From positions 1 through 40,155 of the IMG/VR virus record IMGVR_UViG_3300010371_000065: 40,155 nt of DNA; one strand, written 5' to 3'. This DNA comes from a virus. Below the pieces are notes generated by a model. It did not search any database, was not told the origin of the DNA, and saw nothing but the letters and a program-made list of their open reading frames with translations. The position numbers and the translations under genes were made by a program. Below are positions 9,519 to 34,019 of the stretch, one piece after another (position 1 is the stretch's first letter; the number at the start of each line of letters is the position of its first letter).

Positions 9519-10922
9519 CTACCACACCTCCTGCAACTCGCGCAGTTCCTGCGGCTCCATTGGCGGCACATCGTCACGCGCCTCACGTGTACGTTTTTTC
9601 TGCCACGTTGAGCGGTGCCGATTGACCGTATTGTCGTGCGGCATCAGCTTGAGTGAGCCGGGCATATCTTGATTGGCGCGCTTAAAGACTTCAACGGCCA
9701 GTTCATGCTGACCTACTTTGCGCTTCTGGCCACTAGCCCACCACTCATCAAGGAGTTTGTAGGTGGTAAGTTCGATAATGCGCGCGCGGCGATCAGCGCC
9801 CTCCTTCTTGCGTTCTTTGTACGACTTCTTCATACCCTCGGAGATCATCTCGGCACGAGTCTTAGATGGTCGGGCCGGGCCGGAATTGGCCGCGCGTCGC
9901 GTGCTGTGGCGCGTGCCGCTAGATGCCGCGCCCGCTGTCTCGGCCAACTCATCCTCTGAATAGACTGCTGTGATGCCGGGGTCTTCGTCCTCATAGCCGT
10001 CAGTCTCGTCGTAGATAGCCCACGGATCGGTCGGTGTCTCCGGGTCATGCATCGCCTTGTAGGCGCTTGCTGCGGCCACATGATGCTCCAATGTCTCAGT
10101 CAGTGGCAGCGTTGCTGCGGCGTGAATCTTCACCGATGGAACGCCGCCGTGCCCCGCTGGCAGCGCAGGCGGCATGCCTTTCTGCGCTACTGCAATCAGC
10201 CGATTGAGCTTATCTTCCTCGTGTTCGCCCATCACCGCTGACGCGCCGAAGAGTTCCATCTTGCGCGCGAGCGGCGCGCTGGGATCGTTGGCGATCTCCG
10301 ACACATCGCGGATGACTCCCTGCCCAGCGCCTAACTCCACCTGCGCCAGAATGTCGCGGGAAGTGACGGGCAGTGGACGCGCCATCGCCAGATAGACCGC
10401 GATGAGCGGAGCCGCCAGCGCGCGGGCGATAATCAACGCCCAGGCGACGCCGCCGACGGGACGCTCATAGACACCCGCCATGTAGCAATAGGTGCCCGCC
10501 TCGATGAGAGAGATACCGCCGATGACCAGCGCATGCAGCCACATATCGCCAAGCTCGGCGCGGCGCATGCGCAGGAGCCGATAGACGCTCGCCGCCTGCA
10601 AGACGGCGACATCCATCGCGGGCACCAGGAGCGCCGTCACGCCGAGCGCGATGGCGTTGGGGATATCGAGTACGCCGTGTTGCAGACTGGCGACCACCGC
10701 GCGGAAGGCGTCACCACCGAGAGAGACGAGTGACGCCAGCGAAAAGAGGATAATCAGCAGGCCTGCGAACCAGTGCGAGACACGCGCGCCTGCGCTGCCT
10801 TGGCGGGCAATGTCGCGCATCTGCTCCTCGACCTTATCGCGCTGGCCAAACATACGCGTTCGGACGCGACCGAACCAGCCGGTGATCTCACCGGACACAG
10901 GGATAGACGGGTGTTGCTGCAT
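9519..10922 (-). CDS. Four-helix membrane protein with basic, possibly DNA-binding C-terminal domain
   Basis: A 467-residue protein. Four hydrophobic segments lie at about 51-70, 88-112, 128-150 and 158-180, with buried acidic residues (D104, E141). Residues 185-345 are polar and acidic. Residues 355-450 are strongly basic, with a K-S-Y-K-E-R-K-K-E stretch, then a helical region and W-Q-K-K-R-T-R, suggesting a winged-helix or similar nucleic-acid-binding domain. This N-membrane/C-DNA-binding layout recalls DUF2637/Spd-type plasmid proteins, but I cannot claim membership. AGGAG precedes the ATG at 10922. Membrane tethering of phage DNA, plasmid-like maintenance or superinfection exclusion are possible roles. 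Confidence 0.65.
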   Translation of the reverse strand: MQQHPSIPVSGEITGWFGRVRTRMFGQRDKVEEQMRDIARQGSAGARVSHWFAGLLIILFSLASLVSLGGDAFRAVVASLQHGVLDIPNAIALGVTALLVPAMDVAVLQAASVYRLLRMRRAELGDMWLHALVIGGISLIEAGTYCYMAGVYERPVGGVAWALIIARALAAPLIAVYLAMARPLPVTSRDILAQVELGAGQGVIRDVSEIANDPSAPLARKMELFGASAVMGEHEEDKLNRLIAVAQKGMPPALPAGHGGVPSVKIHAAATLPLTETLEHHVAAASAYKAMHDPETPTDPWAIYDETDGYEDEDPGITAVYSEDELAETAGAASSGTRHSTRRAANSGPARPSKTRAEMISEGMKKSYKERKKEGADRRARIIELTTYKLLDEWWASGQKRKVGQHELAVEVFKRANQDMPGSLKLMPHDNTVNRHRSTWQKKRTREARDDVPPMEPQELRELQEVW

Positions 10923-11011
10923 ACAATTCTCCTGGTTGCTCAGGGACATACACACACGAAAACGCTGCCGCTATGCTACCATGCCCGCTCCGTATTGCCT
11001 ACAACAGCATA

Positions 11012-17389: not shown

Positions 17390-18142
17390 ATGGAAGAAGC
17401 AGCGACAATTGAGGCGGCGGCTTTTCGCCGCCTACGGGCCACACACGACACGACGCTCCGCGAGCAGCTCATCGAGCAATGGCTCTGGCTACCGCGCTAT
17501 CTCGTCAGCACGCGGCGCTACCATGCGCCCGGCTGGGAGCGTGAGGACTTCGTGAGCGAAGGGATGGTGGGGCTTATCCAGGCCATTGACAGCTACGACC
17601 CAGACGGCAAACACGTGGGGCTGCGGTTTCATACCGTCGCCGAGTGGCTCATTCGGCGGCAGATCAATAGCGCCATCCAGGACGATATCGCCGAGCAGCC
17701 CACGGTGCCCCTGCGCGCCTTTGAGCCGGTGCTGACGCCCGCGTGGCTCCAGGATCGCATCACGCGTGAATTGGAGGCGCTCCCCGCCACTGGCCCCAGC
17801 GTCGAAGAGCAGGTGATAACCCTCATTGATGGCGCTGAGTTGTCCGCGCCGCTTGAGGCGGCGCTCCTCTTGCTGTCAGAACGCCAGCGGATGATCGTCA
17901 TGGCGCGCGCTGGCGCGCTGCCTGATGGCTCGGCATGGTCGTATGAGGAGATTGGCGCGCTGGTGGGAGTAGGTAAATCAACCGCCTGGCGCAGCATGCA
18001 AAAGGCGCGCGCCATCCTGCGCGCGAACCTCGTCACCACACACAGCGGTATTCTCGCGCTACGTGAACTCGACGAAGCGGAAAAGAGGCAACGCCAGCAG
18101 CGCTTACAGCGACAGCAGCGGCAAAAGACGAAGGCGGCGTGA
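17390..18142 (+). CDS. Phage-encoded sigma-70-family factor
   Basis: A 250-residue protein. About residues 45-105 resemble sigma region 2: E-D-F-V-S-E-G-M-V-G-L-I-Q-A-I-D, F-H-T-V-A-E-W-L-I-R-R-Q-I-N-S-A-I. Residues about 155-215 resemble region 4, with L-S-E-R-Q-R-M-I-V and an HTH in S-Y-E-E-I-G-A-L-V-G-V-G-K-S-T-A-W-R. Regions 1 and 3 are reduced, as in small alternative sigmas. It would direct host RNA polymerase to phage promoters, presumably middle or late. GCGAGG upstream of ATG supports the start. Which sites it recognises cannot be told; the promoters found here look like host sigma-70 sites. Confidence 0.85.
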   Translation: MEEAATIEAAAFRRLRATHDTTLREQLIEQWLWLPRYLVSTRRYHAPGWEREDFVSEGMVGLIQAIDSYDPDGKHVGLRFHTVAEWLIRRQINSAIQDDIAEQPTVPLRAFEPVLTPAWLQDRITRELEALPATGPSVEEQVITLIDGAELSAPLEAALLLLSERQRMIVMARAGALPDGSAWSYEEIGALVGVGKSTAWRSMQKARAILRANLVTTHSGILALRELDEAEKRQRQQRLQRQQRQKTKAA

Positions 18143-18146
18143 TGAG

Positions 18147-18728
18147 ATGGCGGGAGAGATTCGACGCGAGAACTTCGCGGATGAGGCGTCATGGTTAGCG
18201 TATCTAGCATTTGAACACGAGAACAATGAACGCAAACTTCGCGAGGATTTGGCACGATCCCAGATGCCACTCCATACACGCAAGAGGCTTGAACGATTAG
18301 ACAGGCGGCGCGAGCAAGAACTGACCCGCCGCCGGAAACAACGCGAGCGTGATCGCCGTGAGATAGCAGATCAATTGATCAATGACGAGCGGAAGAGAAT
18401 ATTAGAGACCACCTACAGTGTGGCAGAGGTGGCAGATATGCTTGGCGTAAGCATCATCACAATCCGCAAACGCATTGAGTCAGGAAGCATTGAAGTAGTT
18501 CGTCTTCCACACCGGCCACACCAAAAACACATACGAGGCGAGGGAATAAGGCGCATACCGTTATCCGCAATAAAGAAAGTGGAGATTAAGCCCGCTGTGG
18601 CACCATGCCCTGCTCCGCTCACATGTGTATATTGCGGATACTCGTATTCAGATGGTTCCCATAAACCATATTGCTCGTGGCAATGCGTGCAATCGCACCG
18701 ACTGAACGTATGGCAATATGGTTTTTAG
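18147..18728 (+). CDS. Regulator with long coil, excisionase-type HTH and zinc finger
   Basis: A 193-residue protein. Residues 1-85 form a long, highly charged helix (R-R-R-E-Q-E-L-T-R-R-R-K-Q-R-E-R-D). Residues about 92-150 hold a MerR/excisionase-like HTH: T-Y-S-V-A-E-V-A-D-M-L-G-V-S, then T-I-R-K-R-I-E-S-G-S-I. The C-terminus has C-V-Y-C-G-Y and C-S-W-Q-C, a zinc finger. The gene is visibly poorer in GC, with many AGA, ATA and TTA codons, unlike its neighbours, which suggests more recent acquisition. AAGG is somewhat far from the ATG. Its target is unknown. Confidence 0.7.
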   Translation: MAGEIRRENFADEASWLAYLAFEHENNERKLREDLARSQMPLHTRKRLERLDRRREQELTRRRKQRERDRREIADQLINDERKRILETTYSVAEVADMLGVSIITIRKRIESGSIEVVRLPHRPHQKHIRGEGIRRIPLSAIKKVEIKPAVAPCPAPLTCVYCGYSYSDGSHKPYCSWQCVQSHRLNVWQYGF

Positions 18729-19047: not shown

Positions 19048-19087
19048 TAGCGTACGGGATATGGGAATGGTTTTTAGGAGCGGATAC

Positions 19088-20884
19088 ATGGCAGCAACAC
19101 CACCGAACCCTCCGCAGCGCAACAGCAACATTCGCGCGTTACCTATCGAGGAGAACCGGGGCGAGTACACCGATAATCTCCCTGGTGATGAGAGTGCCGA
19201 GCAGGGTGTGCTCGGCTGTATCCTAGAAAACTCGCGTGAGATTCTCCCGCTTGTACGGCGCATCCTCTCACCGGGTGACTTCGGACGCAACAAGCACAAC
19301 ATCATCTATCAGACCGTCATTGACATGGCCGACCGGGGCGACCCGGTAGATGTCTCTACCGTGCCTATCGAGTTGCGTCGCCTCGGCAAGCTCGAAGATG
19401 TTGAGGGCATCGGCTATGTCACGAGTCTACCCAACCTCGTGCCGAACATCTATGACGCTGAATACTACGCCAATCAGGTGCGCGACGCCGCCGCTGGTGT
19501 TCACGCTGTTACCTTCGCGCAGAAGGTGGCGCTACTTGGCTATGGCAATATTGGCGCAGACAAGATCATCGCCGAAATTGATCGCCTCCACGGTGAGTTA
19601 CATGAGCATGCGGGCGCGCTCACCGTCAATCGATTCGGCATCATGTCAGACCTCGAACTCGAACAGATGCGCCCGGTGCGTGGCATCCTCGGCACGTGGA
19701 TACGTGACCGCGATATCGTCGCCATCTATGGCAAAACCGATAGCTACAAGACGTTTCTCGCGGTCGGTATCGGCATGTGTTTCGCCACCGGCGTGGATTG
19801 GTATGGCATGCCCGTCGAGCAGCGCGCCGTCTTCTACATCGCCGCCGAAGCCCCTGGAACAATTGGTGAACGTAAAAAGGCGTGGAAGATTCATCACGGC
19901 ATGGCAGGCCAGCAGACCGAGTTCTACACGTCTACGCTGCCGGTTGATCTTACCTCGCGCGAAGAGGTGACAGCGCTCATCGGCGATATTCGCGCCATGC
20001 TCCCTGACGCGCCCGGCGCGATCATCGTGGACACCTACGCCTGCGCCACCAGCGGTGATGAGAAGGATGCGAGCACCGTCAACGCGGCCTATCGCGGTAT
20101 GCGGATGCTCCGTGACGCCTTCGGCGCGACCGTGCTCTATGTCGATCATGAGGGCAAAGACCGCGAACGCGGGCAGACGGGTAGCCAGCGCAAGCAAGAT
20201 AACGTGGATGTGCAGATTCACGTCGAGAAAGTGGCTGACCAATCCGGCCTCATCACCGTCAAGGCGAGCAAGATCAAAACCGCCGATACCCCCTCGATGC
20301 TCACCCTCCAAACGAAATCCGTAGGTTGGTATGACCCGCGTGATGAGGCTGGATCGGGATCGCTGGTACTCATCAACGCCGATAGAGCGCAGGCGCAAGC
20401 CGCAACCAAAGAGGCGCAATCACTCCGACTCCCCCGCCGTCAACGGCAAGCGCTTGACATATTGTCGGATTTGCCTAGCCAAAAAGGGTCGTACGGTGAC
20501 TGGTGGAAAGCCTGTCGGACGGCTGATGAGACGTTTGCGAAGACTTCTTTCGACGACGCGCGGAAGAAGCTCGTCGAAAGCCGCTTAATTTCAGTCGTGG
20601 ACAACGAATACGTTAGCTTGGTACAATCACAAAACCGTACTAGTACAACCGTACCGAACCGTACTGGTACGGTTAGTACGGTCCCTTATATAAGGGACCG
20701 TACTTCCGTACCAACTATACGGTATTCGGTAGACGCGGCGGATGTCGTACCAGAGTCAGATGTGCAGACGGCGCCCTATCATCGGCATGACCCCAAGACG
20801 GCGGTGAGGCGTAGTGATGGTAGTGTGATTTGTGATGGCTGTCACCCCAAGCCGAGAACGCCGCAGCCACCTCGTAGCGCGTAG
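19088..20884 (+). CDS. Replicative helicase/initiator: DnaB-N plus RepA-like ATPase plus winged helix
   Basis: A 598-residue protein. Residues 25-170 are a DnaB N-terminal domain (P-G-D-E-S-A-E-Q-G-V-L-G-C-I-L-E). Residues 200-420 are a RecA-fold ATPase of the RepA/AAA_25 type, with Walker A Y-G-K-T-D-S-Y-K-T, Walker B G-A-I-I-V-D-T and a V-D-H-E-G-K sensor. Residues 440-515 look like a winged helix. The tail (515-541) is encoded by an iteron and palindrome array and reads as low-complexity Thr/Arg/Val, followed by a short C-x2-C. It probably loads or is the replicative helicase. TTAGGAG decides ATG 19088. Its fusion of a DnaB-N domain to a RepA-type core, with an origin-like array in its own gene, resembles lambda O-type design. 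Confidence 0.8.
   Translation: MAATPPNPPQRNSNIRALPIEENRGEYTDNLPGDESAEQGVLGCILENSREILPLVRRILSPGDFGRNKHNIIYQTVIDMADRGDPVDVSTVPIELRRLGKLEDVEGIGYVTSLPNLVPNIYDAEYYANQVRDAAAGVHAVTFAQKVALLGYGNIGADKIIAEIDRLHGELHEHAGALTVNRFGIMSDLELEQMRPVRGILGTWIRDRDIVAIYGKTDSYKTFLAVGIGMCFATGVDWYGMPVEQRAVFYIAAEAPGTIGERKKAWKIHHGMAGQQTEFYTSTLPVDLTSREEVTALIGDIRAMLPDAPGAIIVDTYACATSGDEKDASTVNAAYRGMRMLRDAFGATVLYVDHEGKDRERGQTGSQRKQDNVDVQIHVEKVADQSGLITVKASKIKTADTPSMLTLQTKSVGWYDPRDEAGSGSLVLINADRAQAQAATKEAQSLRLPRRQRQALDILSDLPSQKGSYGDWWKACRTADETFAKTSFDDARKKLVESRLISVVDNEYVSLVQSQNRTSTTVPNRTGTVSTVPYIRDRTSVPTIRYSVDAADVVPESDVQTAPYHRHDPKTAVRRSDGSVICDGCHPKPRTPQPPRSA
20633..20711. other. Iteron and palindrome cluster, candidate replication origin
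   Basis: The 8-mer RACCGTAC occurs directly at 20633, 20647, 20657 and 20696 and inverted (GTACGGTY) at 20667 and 20676. A perfect 28-base palindrome lies at 20676-20703 (arms GTACGGTCCCTTAT and its complement) with an AT-rich centre. AACCGTAC-TG-GTACGGTT at 20657-20674 is a second palindrome. A further TTCCGTAC ends at 20711. All lie inside the 3' coding part of the helicase gene. Confidence 0.65.
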
Positions 20885-30179: not shown

Positions 30180-33100
30180 ATGTCTTCTAACCCGCTCAAT
30201 GTGGACGCCTACCGCGCCAGCCTGCTGCAACTTCAGCAACAGCAGCAGGCGCGTCTGGCCGCGTTGACCGAGCAGGTGGAGGGCAGTCTGGGGGCTAACT
30301 GGCAGCGCGGCGTCGCAGCAACACCGGCGCTCTATGGCCCCATCCTCGATCAGTATGCGCAAGACCTGGCCGCGCTTCGAGCCGCCAACGACGATCCCGC
30401 AGCAACACTCTCGTTGGATTGGCTCACCTCGCGCAATCCGCAGATCGCCAGCATCGAGGCGAATGTCAAAGCCAGCCTGGACAAATATGCGGCGCAATCC
30501 GCGACGACGGTCACGACGGCACAGGCGTCCGCCGCTGGTCTTGGCCTCGATGACGCCTCGCACCTCACACAACAGGCGCTCTGGCCTGCGGTGGACGGCG
30601 CTGGTGTCCCACCTGCCATGCTGTTCAACCGGCCGAATCCTGACGCGTTGGCCGCCTGGGTGGGTCGGGCAGGGAATGGCCACCCACTCGGCGATCTGTT
30701 TGCCAATTTCGGGTCTGAGGCGACGACCGCCGCACGTCAGGCCATGATGCTGGGACTCGCCACCGGGGCCAACCCGAAGGCGATGGCCTCTGGCATCGCC
30801 GATGCGATGGGCATCAGCCGCTCGCGTGCGACCATCATTGCGCGCACTGAGGTACTGGGAAGCTACCGCAGCGCCGCGCATGAGACGTACCGCGCCAATA
30901 GCGACGTGCTGAACGGCTGGGTCTGGTCGGCTGGTGGAAATTCACCATGTGCCATGTGCGCCGGGATGGATGGCCTGCAATTCAGTCTCGATGAGGAGTT
31001 GGTAGATCACCCGTGCGGGAAGTGCAGTCCCATCCCGATCACGAAAACGTGGGATGACATCCTCTCACCGCTTGGCATCAGCGGCGATGATATCGGCGAG
31101 ACGAGCATGGGCGAAGACGGCGCGTATGAGAGCTTCTCAGACCGCTTCTCATCGCTGCCAGCGGCGCAGCAGCGCGACATTATCGGCACCAAGACGGGCT
31201 ATGAGGCGTACCAACGCGGCGAGGTGACGCTCAAAGACTTCATTGGCAAACGCCCGGCGGAGGATGGCTGGCCCGCGCAATATTACCAGAAATCCCTGCG
31301 CGAGATGCAGATTCCCACACGCCAGGGGCTGCACGTTACGCCATCTGACTACCTCACGGAGCGGCTCTATCGCCAGCCGGGTCTCAACACGGTGGACGCG
31401 AGTAGACTGCGCGCCGCGCGGATGCCGCCCTGGGCGCGGCAGACACCCGCCTCGCAGATGGTGTATCAGATTCTGCGCAATGGCCTCCCCACTGATCTCC
31501 CAGAGGTGCTCGACCGCCCGGTGTTGATCGAGGGGCTGCGGCAGATGCTCGAAAGCGATATCCCTGCGAATGTGCGCGCAGCGGTGGAGCGCCAACTGAC
31601 TGACCTGGGCGCGCCACTGGAGCGGGTTGCGCTCAACACCACGCCGGGCTGGCAGCGCGATATCAATGACCTCTACCGCGACATCATTGACCGCAACTAT
31701 AGCATCCGCGCCGAGGATTATTTCAACAATCAGGCGCTACGTGCGGTGTTCGACGCCATGCCCAACCGCGCGCCAAATGTCTGGAATGACATCCGCGCCT
31801 ATGCCCGCGCCCATCAATTCGACCGACCCCATTTCTACAAGCAGGCCATCGAGAATACGCTGAATGAGATCAAACGCCTCAATGGCGAGGAACTGGCGGC
31901 GCTGGCTAATCAGGGCATCTATCCGACGGCGGTGGGGCGTGACCTGGCCAATGAGATCGCGGATAAGGTCGCGGTGGACATGGCAGGTGTAACGGCTGAG
32001 AGTGTTGATGTTGCCGAGACAGCCGCAGCAGATACAGCCGCCCAAGACGCCGCGTCACTGGCCACGGAGGGCGCTACCGGTGATGTGGCGTTTGCGCCAC
32101 TGCGAACGCAGGGCGCGGATAATCTCGGCTGGAACCTGCTTTCTGATAAGCAGGCCGCGAAACAAGACGCGAAACTCATGAGCCAATTGCAAAAAGACGC
32201 GGCGCGGGTCGAGAAGGGTAAGGTCGATTCAGTCGCCTCAGCGCTCGATCAACGGCTTGCTGAGTCGCCTGCATGGCGCGCCTACGTGCAGAGCCGCTCC
32301 TATCTCAATGATGGTGAGCAGGTTGCGCAGAACATCCTGCGGCAGTGGCGTCTCAACGCTAGCGAAGATGCGGCGGCGGCTAATTGGCAGCTCGGCATGC
32401 AGAAGATCGCGGCGCAGGAGTTCAGCATCCCTAACGCGGCGCTATCGCATATTGACCCCGCCCTCCTCGCCGCCGCAGGCTCCTCGAACGAGGCCGATAT
32501 CGCGGCGCTGCGCGCGTTTGAGCGCGCGCAATATGACGCCACCCAGCAGTGGTTCAGGGATCAGGGTGTCTCGACGGTGCGGCTCTATCGCGGCGTCTCA
32601 TTTGGGAGCCCCGACCAGGCTGCTGGGATCGCCTTTGATGGCAGCGCGCAACACGCCGCCATGAATCTCGCGCCGCTGTCCAGCTTCACCCTCAGCCCAA
32701 ACACCGCGCTCGATTTCAGCCGGGGCTTTGAGTTGTCCGGCATGGGCGGGGGGCAATATCAGGCAGTGCTGGCGGTGGATGTGCCAGTCTCGCGTATTCT
32801 CTCACTGAACGCGACTGGCTTTGGCTCGTTGAACGAGTCAGAGGTGGTGTTGCTGGGTGGCGTCAATCAGCCCGTGGCTATCGTCGCCTGGGATGCCGGT
32901 CAACACGCGTTGCCGCAGGTTGCGGAATTGCAGGCCGCATTGAGTGATTTGCCCGCTGCGCCTGAGGTCGCCTTTGCCACCGCGCGCGCGCAAAGCGGCT
33001 TTATCACCGAGACAGCCAGCTACGACTTGACGCCAGACGACAAGATATTCGCCGCGCAGATCAAGAGCCAGGTGGATGCGCTCGATCAGAGCGCGCTCAC

Positions 33101-34019
33101 ACATGACCACGCTCTGAACATCGGTGCGCAGATTCACGACCGCATCATGAGCGATCCGGTGGTGGCAGACCTGCATGACTACGCCGCTGAGGCGCGTGCT
33201 ATCGCCACCACGCCTACCACCGACCTTACCGATGGCCAACTGGCGTGGCTCCATGCCGAGCCGGATGCGCTGGCGGCGCATGGTGGCGTGCGCGTCGGGC
33301 TGGCGCAGGCTGAGTATCAGGCTGAGTATCAGGCGCGGGTATTGACCTATCTGCAAGAGGTACGCGAGATGGGCGGCGCTGACATCAACCTCAATGAGGC
33401 CGCCGACGCTTTTGACGCGCGCGCCGCCACCGAGCTACGCAGCATGCAGGATGTGATGCCAAAAGATTGGATCGAGGCCAGCAACAATCTCGGCGATTTG
33501 AACGTGGTCAAAAATCGAGCCACCAATAGCGTCGGATTTTACGAACACACCTACGAGGGCAATGGCACAATCTCACTGAGTTACAACCGCAATACTCCAG
33601 AAGGCGATATGGGCGTACGCTCCACTGCGCTCCATGAGATGATGCACCGCATAGAGGACGCCATCCCGCAGATCGGGCAATTAGAGCAGCAGTTCTACGA
33701 CTACCGTACCGCCGGTGAGGACTTGGTAAAGCTCACCAATGGCATCGGGCAGAAGACCAAGCTCGATCAGTGGCTCGATCAGTACCTGGGCCGAGAGCCA
33801 CAGACGAGTCTGCATGCGGGCAGTTTTATCAAGCCAGACGGCACGATGGGCTTTGCGCCAAACACCCAAAGCTATGAACTACTCTCGATGGGCGCCGAGG
33901 CGCTGCTCGGTGGCGTCGCCGATATGGCATACTTACGTGAGGATGAGGAATTTATTCACTTTATTCTCGGCCTCTTATCCATCGTGCGCGGTGATGCCGC
34001 AGGAGCCGTCTTACCATGA
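30180..34019 (+). CDS. MuF-type minor head protein fused to ADP-ribosyltransferase-like and HExxH domains
   Basis: A 1279-residue protein, far longer than ordinary MuF proteins. Residues about 110-290 are the MuF domain: I-A-R-T-E-V-L-G-S-Y (about 219), W-V-W-S-A-G, C-A-M-C-A-G-M-D-G and H-P-C-G-K-C. Residues about 790-900 look like an R-S-E ADP-ribosyltransferase: R-L-Y-R-G (801), S-S-F-T-L-S (834), then E-S-E (about 884). About 1152-1156 is H-E-M-M-H, a metallopeptidase-type motif. The protein probably sits at the portal vertex and is injected. Its promoter and ribosome binding site are weak. Known MuF fusions to toxin domains in temperate phages support an effector role acting on the host. 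Confidence 0.75.
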   Translation: MSSNPLNVDAYRASLLQLQQQQQARLAALTEQVEGSLGANWQRGVAATPALYGPILDQYAQDLAALRAANDDPAATLSLDWLTSRNPQIASIEANVKASLDKYAAQSATTVTTAQASAAGLGLDDASHLTQQALWPAVDGAGVPPAMLFNRPNPDALAAWVGRAGNGHPLGDLFANFGSEATTAARQAMMLGLATGANPKAMASGIADAMGISRSRATIIARTEVLGSYRSAAHETYRANSDVLNGWVWSAGGNSPCAMCAGMDGLQFSLDEELVDHPCGKCSPIPITKTWDDILSPLGISGDDIGETSMGEDGAYESFSDRFSSLPAAQQRDIIGTKTGYEAYQRGEVTLKDFIGKRPAEDGWPAQYYQKSLREMQIPTRQGLHVTPSDYLTERLYRQPGLNTVDASRLRAARMPPWARQTPASQMVYQILRNGLPTDLPEVLDRPVLIEGLRQMLESDIPANVRAAVERQLTDLGAPLERVALNTTPGWQRDINDLYRDIIDRNYSIRAEDYFNNQALRAVFDAMPNRAPNVWNDIRAYARAHQFDRPHFYKQAIENTLNEIKRLNGEELAALANQGIYPTAVGRDLANEIADKVAVDMAGVTAESVDVAETAAADTAAQDAASLATEGATGDVAFAPLRTQGADNLGWNLLSDKQAAKQDAKLMSQLQKDAARVEKGKVDSVASALDQRLAESPAWRAYVQSRSYLNDGEQVAQNILRQWRLNASEDAAAANWQLGMQKIAAQEFSIPNAALSHIDPALLAAAGSSNEADIAALRAFERAQYDATQQWFRDQGVSTVRLYRGVSFGSPDQAAGIAFDGSAQHAAMNLAPLSSFTLSPNTALDFSRGFELSGMGGGQYQAVLAVDVPVSRILSLNATGFGSLNESEVVLLGGVNQPVAIVAWDAGQHALPQVAELQAALSDLPAAPEVAFATARAQSGFITETASYDLTPDDKIFAAQIKSQVDALDQSALTHDHALNIGAQIHDRIMSDPVVADLHDYAAEARAIATTPTTDLTDGQLAWLHAEPDALAAHGGVRVGLAQAEYQAEYQARVLTYLQEVREMGGADINLNEAADAFDARAATELRSMQDVMPKDWIEASNNLGDLNVVKNRATNSVGFYEHTYEGNGTISLSYNRNTPEGDMGVRSTALHEMMHRIEDAIPQIGQLEQQFYDYRTAGEDLVKLTNGIGQKTKLDQWLDQYLGREPQTSLHAGSFIKPDGTMGFAPNTQSYELLSMGAEALLGGVADMAYLREDEEFIHFILGLLSIVRGDAAGAVLP

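Follow-up and report, generated by a model that had tools for sequence, protein, structure and literature searches.

An iteron array inside the reading frame of a RepA-type helicase gene is a probable replication origin of a tailed phage

The window analysed here, which is the whole of the 40,155-base virus record IMGVR_UViG_3300010371_000065, carries a compact array of iterons within the 3′ coding part of a replicative helicase gene. We consider it very likely that phage replication starts at this array, as the only or the main origin, and that the initiator is the gene's own product, a self-loading helicase of the RepA type. The case, which is built from sequence comparison, draws on the array itself, its independence from the peptide it encodes, the tie between such arrays and the 3′ ends of RepA-type helicase genes, and the co-variation of helicase C-terminus and iteron word within one family.

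All six copies of the word RACCGTAC/GTACGGTY in the window fall within 71 bp, at positions 20633–20703, as the initial annotation had reported, with zero copies elsewhere. The whole-window expectation for RACCGTAC is 1.17 copies, and six were reached in 0 of 100 shuffles. Three direct copies of AACCGTAC on the plus strand (iterons 1 to 3, at 20633–20640, 20647–20654 and 20657–20664) are followed by an inverted one on the minus strand (iteron 4, 20667–20674). The remaining two copies, both GACCGTAC, sit in the arms of a palindrome, inverted in the left arm (iteron 5, 20676–20683, minus strand) and direct in the right (iteron 6, 20696–20703, plus strand). Two degenerate copies with two mismatches each lie further right, TTCCGTAC on the plus strand (20704–20711) and an inverted TACCGTAT on the minus strand (20717–20724). 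An earlier delimitation of the feature to 20633–20711 thus holds for the core but stops short of the second degenerate copy, which reaches 20724, and of an imperfect inverted repeat that continues to about 20735. Just left of the array is a promoter-like site with an extended −10 element (TGGACA-18-TACAAT, 20598–20627, plus strand, 10 of 12 matches), although such sites are near the chance level in this region, with four found against 1.8 expected.

The palindrome, AGTACGGTCCCTTAT/ATAAGGGACCGTACT at 20675–20704, had been described as a perfect one of 28 bases. It is in fact perfect over 30 bp and is the longest in the window, where shuffled sequences gave 14–18 bp. Its centre, TTATATAA, is AT-rich, and a second, nested inverted repeat (AACCGTACTGGTACGGTT, 20657–20674) adjoins it, both as first annotated. 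The AT-rich centre is flanked by iterons, with five copies on the left and one perfect and two degenerate copies on the right, so that the right-hand set is weak. Fold prediction places the palindrome in a long and imperfect inverted repeat (about 20650–20735) with the potential for single-strand folding, at a DNA fold energy of −32.4 kcal/mol (z −6.8, equalled in 0 of 200 shuffles; neighbouring stretches gave z −1.3 and +1.3). The 30-bp palindrome with TTATATAA is a candidate melting or helicase-loading site between two iteron sets.

The open reading frame of the helicase gene (19061–20884) runs through the array without a stop codon, bearing out its placement in the 3′ coding part of that gene. 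In order to separate the demands of the DNA from those of the protein, the 27 residues encoded by the array (NRTSTTVPNRTGTVSTVPYIRDRTSVP) were held fixed while codons were drawn from the gene's own usage. Six copies of the word were reached in none of 200,000 synonymous recodings, and the 30-bp palindrome was reproduced in none of 5,000; therefore it is the DNA, and not the peptide, that carries the repeat pattern. The array is far above both chance and what the peptide needs. Together with an AlphaFold confidence below 50 over residues 514–579, which include the iteron-encoded residues, this agrees with the initial proposal of selection on DNA rather than protein. The encoded tail is of low complexity.

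The gene, an intact reading frame on the plus strand, encodes 607 amino acids, arranged as a DnaB-like N-terminal domain, an RSF1010 RepA-type AAA_25 ATPase, a predicted C-terminal winged helix and a disordered tail. The DnaB N-terminal domain (residues 41–142, 19181–19486; Pfam PF00772, 3e-21) may recruit the host DnaG primase. The RepA-type core (residues 200–368, 19658–20164; Pfam PF13481, 1.4e-24) has the RecA fold and is modelled mostly with pLDDT above 90. RSF1010 RepA (1g8y, E 7e-16) is its sole sequence-profile relative among solved structures, while a Foldseek search with the model returned DnaB and RepA matches (1nlf/1olo/1g8y, target TM 0.70–0.74). The RecA-fold ATPase core places the window protein among the RSF1010 RepA-type (AAA_25) replicative helicases. 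Residues 459–512 (20435–20596) follow a helix-helix-helix-strand order in the AlphaFold model, at low to moderate confidence, and probably form a small winged helix, which we propose as the reader of the iterons. Beyond the array lies a Cys-X2-Cys motif (C591-D-G-C594, 20831–20842), which is possibly part of a small zinc module that forces the array to stay in frame. The location of the array within a disordered linker of the coding sequence would then probably be explained by the short Cys-motif tail after it, which is still translated.

Scans of the reading frames against Pfam and PHROG identified the phage's own terminase, portal, scaffold, coat and tail genes in the window, with the terminase gene 6 kb from the array. 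No primase or polymerase, no ParA/ParB-like gene and no helicase loader was recognised among the window reading frames scanned, and GC skew across the window was uninformative, with no clear inflection at the array site. A phage HTH protein is encoded near the helicase gene (18063–18728), and just upstream of the helicase region lies a phage-encoded sigma-70-like factor (17390–18142, plus strand; Sigma70_r2/r4, PHROG RNA polymerase sigma factor). Elsewhere in the window, a 478-residue reading frame on the strand opposite to most genes (9519–10955, minus strand) has neither a Pfam nor a PHROG match, and a 1279-residue protein (30180–34019, plus strand) is mostly unassigned apart from a Phage_Mu_F domain at residues 186–276.

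Close homologues of the window helicase were absent from the viral and genome contigs searched by peptide patterns, and a wide alignment of the helicase gave no usable stretch. Among 80 loci related through the terminase, a distant helicase was present in only two, so the array is not traceable within the phage's own family; distant helicase homologues were found in 3 of 396 actinobacterial genomes. It is partly because no close helicase relative was found that the origin assignment is held at very likely and no higher.

Relatives of the array were sought through the DNA word, by scanning viral contigs for three spaced copies and nothing else. Of the 25 loci retrieved, 22 have a gene for a homologous helicase, and the array sits at its 3′ end. 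Homology was recognised by direct tblastn with the window helicase at 20 loci, and with other homologues as queries at two (L017 and L023). In nearly all of these helicase loci, no more than a few bases separate the start of the array from the helicase stop codon. The association of word and helicase is strong but the independent events are few, as these helicases fall into just two lineages when clustered at 45% identity (the L012/L028 clade and L017). Two pattern matches without the helicase (L014 and L020) lack any recognisable initiator in their vicinity. At a further locus (L029, 9741–9871), an ACCGTAC-type array lies inside a reading frame that by eye resembles a DnaD/O-type phage replication protein, with a possible helicase loader following it; the word would here be in a different kind of initiator gene. 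When the same pattern was applied to bacterial genomes, only one of 104 loci was beside this helicase; 103 were away from it and the word alone is therefore not diagnostic. Among bacterial matches away from the helicase, the pattern is strikingly frequent in Candidatus Poribacteria (L033, L035, L040 and about 30 other loci) and in Phocaeicola (L037, L038 and others); these arrays may be a dispersed repeat family.

The second set of relatives was retrieved through the protein and tested without reference to the word. It comprised 80 viral loci together with phage and plasmid records, whose helicases formed 27 lineages at 45% identity, reduced to 24 by leaving out the window and the two pattern-found lineages. 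An array was scored where at least five copies of one 7-mer fell within 150 nt, no more than 300 nt from the helicase stop codon, with the count reached in 0 of 100 shuffles. With the large L004/L006 cluster counted via its array-bearing members, an array was present at the helicase 3′ end in 10 of the 24 lineages, versus 3 of approximately 237 control stop codons from other reading frames of the same loci. About half of the helicase lineages were without an array by the 7-mer test, as was L004, a Vibrio phage with the same DnaB-N and AAA_25 layout. The words differ by lineage (TGGGACA, TGCGGAA, CGCAACA, GCGTGAC, CGTTCAC, GCTGGAA, GCCGCAC, AAGTGGG and others) while their place is constant, and a spacing of about 10 bp between direct copies is common. 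The retention of this position across differing words lends support to the candidate origin that had been proposed from the window alone.

In most lineages the array lies just after the stop codon, in three it straddles it (L152, L303 and L251), and it lies in frame within the gene in the window and, less clearly, in L302. The L302 count was reached by 14 of 3,000 recodings and this locus is accordingly only supporting, although a Cys motif of a different form likewise follows its in-frame array. The in-frame array of L300 was not used, its count being reached by 142 of 3,000 recodings. Homologues that keep the peptide and lose the DNA repeats were not found; instead, the relatives keep the array, mostly just outside the coding sequence, and the peptide is gone. 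The N-terminal modules of the relatives also vary (DnaB-N, Toprim or Prim-Pol), leaving the ATPase, the C-terminal domain and the array as the common unit.

AT-rich palindromes of unrelated sequence lie between the iterons of several relatives (CCAGTATCTATAGATACTGG in L012, ACAACCCTATAGGGTTGT in L313, ATGGGAAACCCTAAGGGTTCCCAT in L303 and GGGTTCTTTAGAACCC in L028), and are absent from L305 and L162. The palindromes of L003, L006 and L017 are no better than those of shuffled sequence, and that of L028 was matched by 4 of 60 shuffles. A palindrome kept by structure rather than by sequence is thus a lead that is not proven. The single-strand folds predicted for the relatives' arrays are mostly strong, which is weak evidence because arrays with inverted copies fold anyway.

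The relationship between the C-terminal domain and the iteron word was followed in the 67-member, PICI-like family around L006, using pairs with an ATPase-region identity of 90% or more. C-terminal identity averages 93% in pairs that share a word versus 47% in pairs with different words. In same-word pairs, identity-weighted coverage of the DNA is 86% over the C-terminus and 80% over the array, and falls to 25% beyond +230 nt. This co-variation would be expected if the C-terminal domain reads the array and the two travel together as a cassette, although it could partly reflect linkage, since they adjoin.

A mechanism can be proposed from these features. The C-terminal winged helix would bind the ACCGTAC iterons to the left and right of the palindrome, and the ATPase domains could assemble as one or two rings over its AT-rich sequence. 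TTATATAA would then melt or be extruded as hairpins, and the helicase could be loaded onto the exposed strands. The DnaB-type N-terminal domain would presumably call in the host DnaG primase and, with it, the host replisome.

Other roles for the array have to be weighed against an origin. Iteron proteins often autoregulate, and the phage HTH gene nearby and the promoter-like site beside the array would suit a cluster of operators, through which the helicase or another phage HTH protein regulates the downstream genes or its own operon while replication starts elsewhere. Such a cluster is unlikely, given that all six copies are in the array with none repeated upstream of the helicase or at other promoters, and that arrays keep to the 3′ end of the genes of one helicase family in lineages that differ in their words and in their downstream DNA. 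Repeat arrays with inverted copies also act as centromere-like, incompatibility or packaging sites, and this is a phage record with a terminase gene 6 kb away. A maintenance site of this kind is nevertheless quite improbable: no partition gene of the ParA/ParB type was recognised in the scanned reading frames, and the phages, PICI-like satellites and plasmids whose homologous helicases have 3′ arrays differ in their packaging genes.

The strong predicted hairpin could instead act in RNA, as a terminator, attenuator or stability hairpin in the 3′ end of the helicase message. We give this very little credence, as no intrinsic terminator was found in the region and there is no Rfam match, the hairpin lies in sequence that is open for translation, and hairpin formation would not by itself call for six copies of one word. 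Finally, the low complexity of the tail might suggest that a repetitive Thr/Val/Arg peptide gave rise to the words incidentally, or that they arose by chance. The synonymous recodings refute this, none of which gave the six copies or the palindrome, and the relatives keep the array without the peptide; its probability is negligible.

As an origin, the array combines features of the PICI/SaPI type and of in-gene origins. The SaPI Rep and the SCCmec helicase Cch2 recognise repeats directly downstream of their own genes via a C-terminal domain (PMC7581432), and PICI origins 3′ of rep, in which two iteron sets flank an AT-rich region, support plasmid replication (PMC6092414). EcCICFT073 and SaPIbov1 share with the window two iteron sets around an AT-rich stretch, and also an initiator helicase, its C-terminal DNA-binding domain and an origin at the 3′ end of its gene (all three proposed in the window). 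However, the best-studied examples differ in helicase family (SaPI5 Rep and Cch2 are of the Primase_Cterm/D5 type), and their origin follows the stop codon where the window array is in frame. Nor is the window a PICI element, which is a helper-dependent satellite without most structural genes, but a tailed phage genome. The rep of EcCICFT073 lies in a neighbourhood (DUF4222, rep, SSB, PerC, capsid) that in other E. coli islands contains a RepA-family helicase. EcCICFT073 was not accepted as a homologue with experimental proof, because the annotation of its rep, DNA primase family protein, puts it in another protein family.

Origins within genes are known from lambda gene O and SPP1 gene 38 (PMC3985674, PMC6316719), in which, as is proposed for the window, the origin repeats lie within the coding sequence of the initiator. 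The comparison with lambda made in the initial annotation is apt as to this position, but lambda is not the closest precedent. Neither O nor SPP1 gp38 is a helicase, and each depends on a loader (P or gp39) and a DnaB-family helicase, whereas the proposed initiator in the window is the helicase itself, with no separate loader recognised among the reading frames scanned. The self-loading helicases of PICIs and SaPIs, with their adjacent origins, are closer.

The IncQ plasmid RSF1010 shares the RepA-family helicase core and has iterons and inverted repeats at its origin, along with ssi hairpins. Its iteron binder RepC and primase RepB′ are separate proteins (PMC4234260). In the window, by contrast, we propose that a C-terminus with DNA-binding function forms part of the helicase polypeptide, and the scanned reading frames gave no recognisable primase. 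P4 alpha and pRN1 ORF904 are primase-helicases, and pRN1 has a stem-loop origin 3′ of the gene (PMC4234260). Both resemble the window protein in joining a helicase and a C-terminal winged helix (predicted in the window) in one polypeptide, but they have an SF3-type helicase and a primase domain where the window protein has AAA_25 and DnaB-N only, and pRN1 is without iterons.

The proposed origin resembles those known 3′ of the genes for self-loading PICI/SaPI helicases, but it belongs to a RepA-type helicase of a tailed phage and lies within the reading frame. We tentatively suggest, at somewhat less than even likelihood, that helicases of the RepA type, whether from phages, satellites or plasmids, make up a broad class of self-loading initiators. 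In this class the C-terminal domain and 3′ array would evolve as a swappable cassette, an AT-rich palindrome between opposed iterons would be kept structurally, and the array could move past the stop codon into frame, as in this phage, to be translated as a disordered linker to a Cys module. The layout is seen in ordinary tailed phages and in plasmids with a different helicase type, and the solution is therefore wider than satellites. It offers a rule for finding origins in uncultured phages, which is to look where the gene for the RepA-type helicase ends, and the array provides a ready binding assay. It is also a naturally occurring overlap between a probable origin and a reading frame, which allows the constraints on DNA and on protein to be separated.
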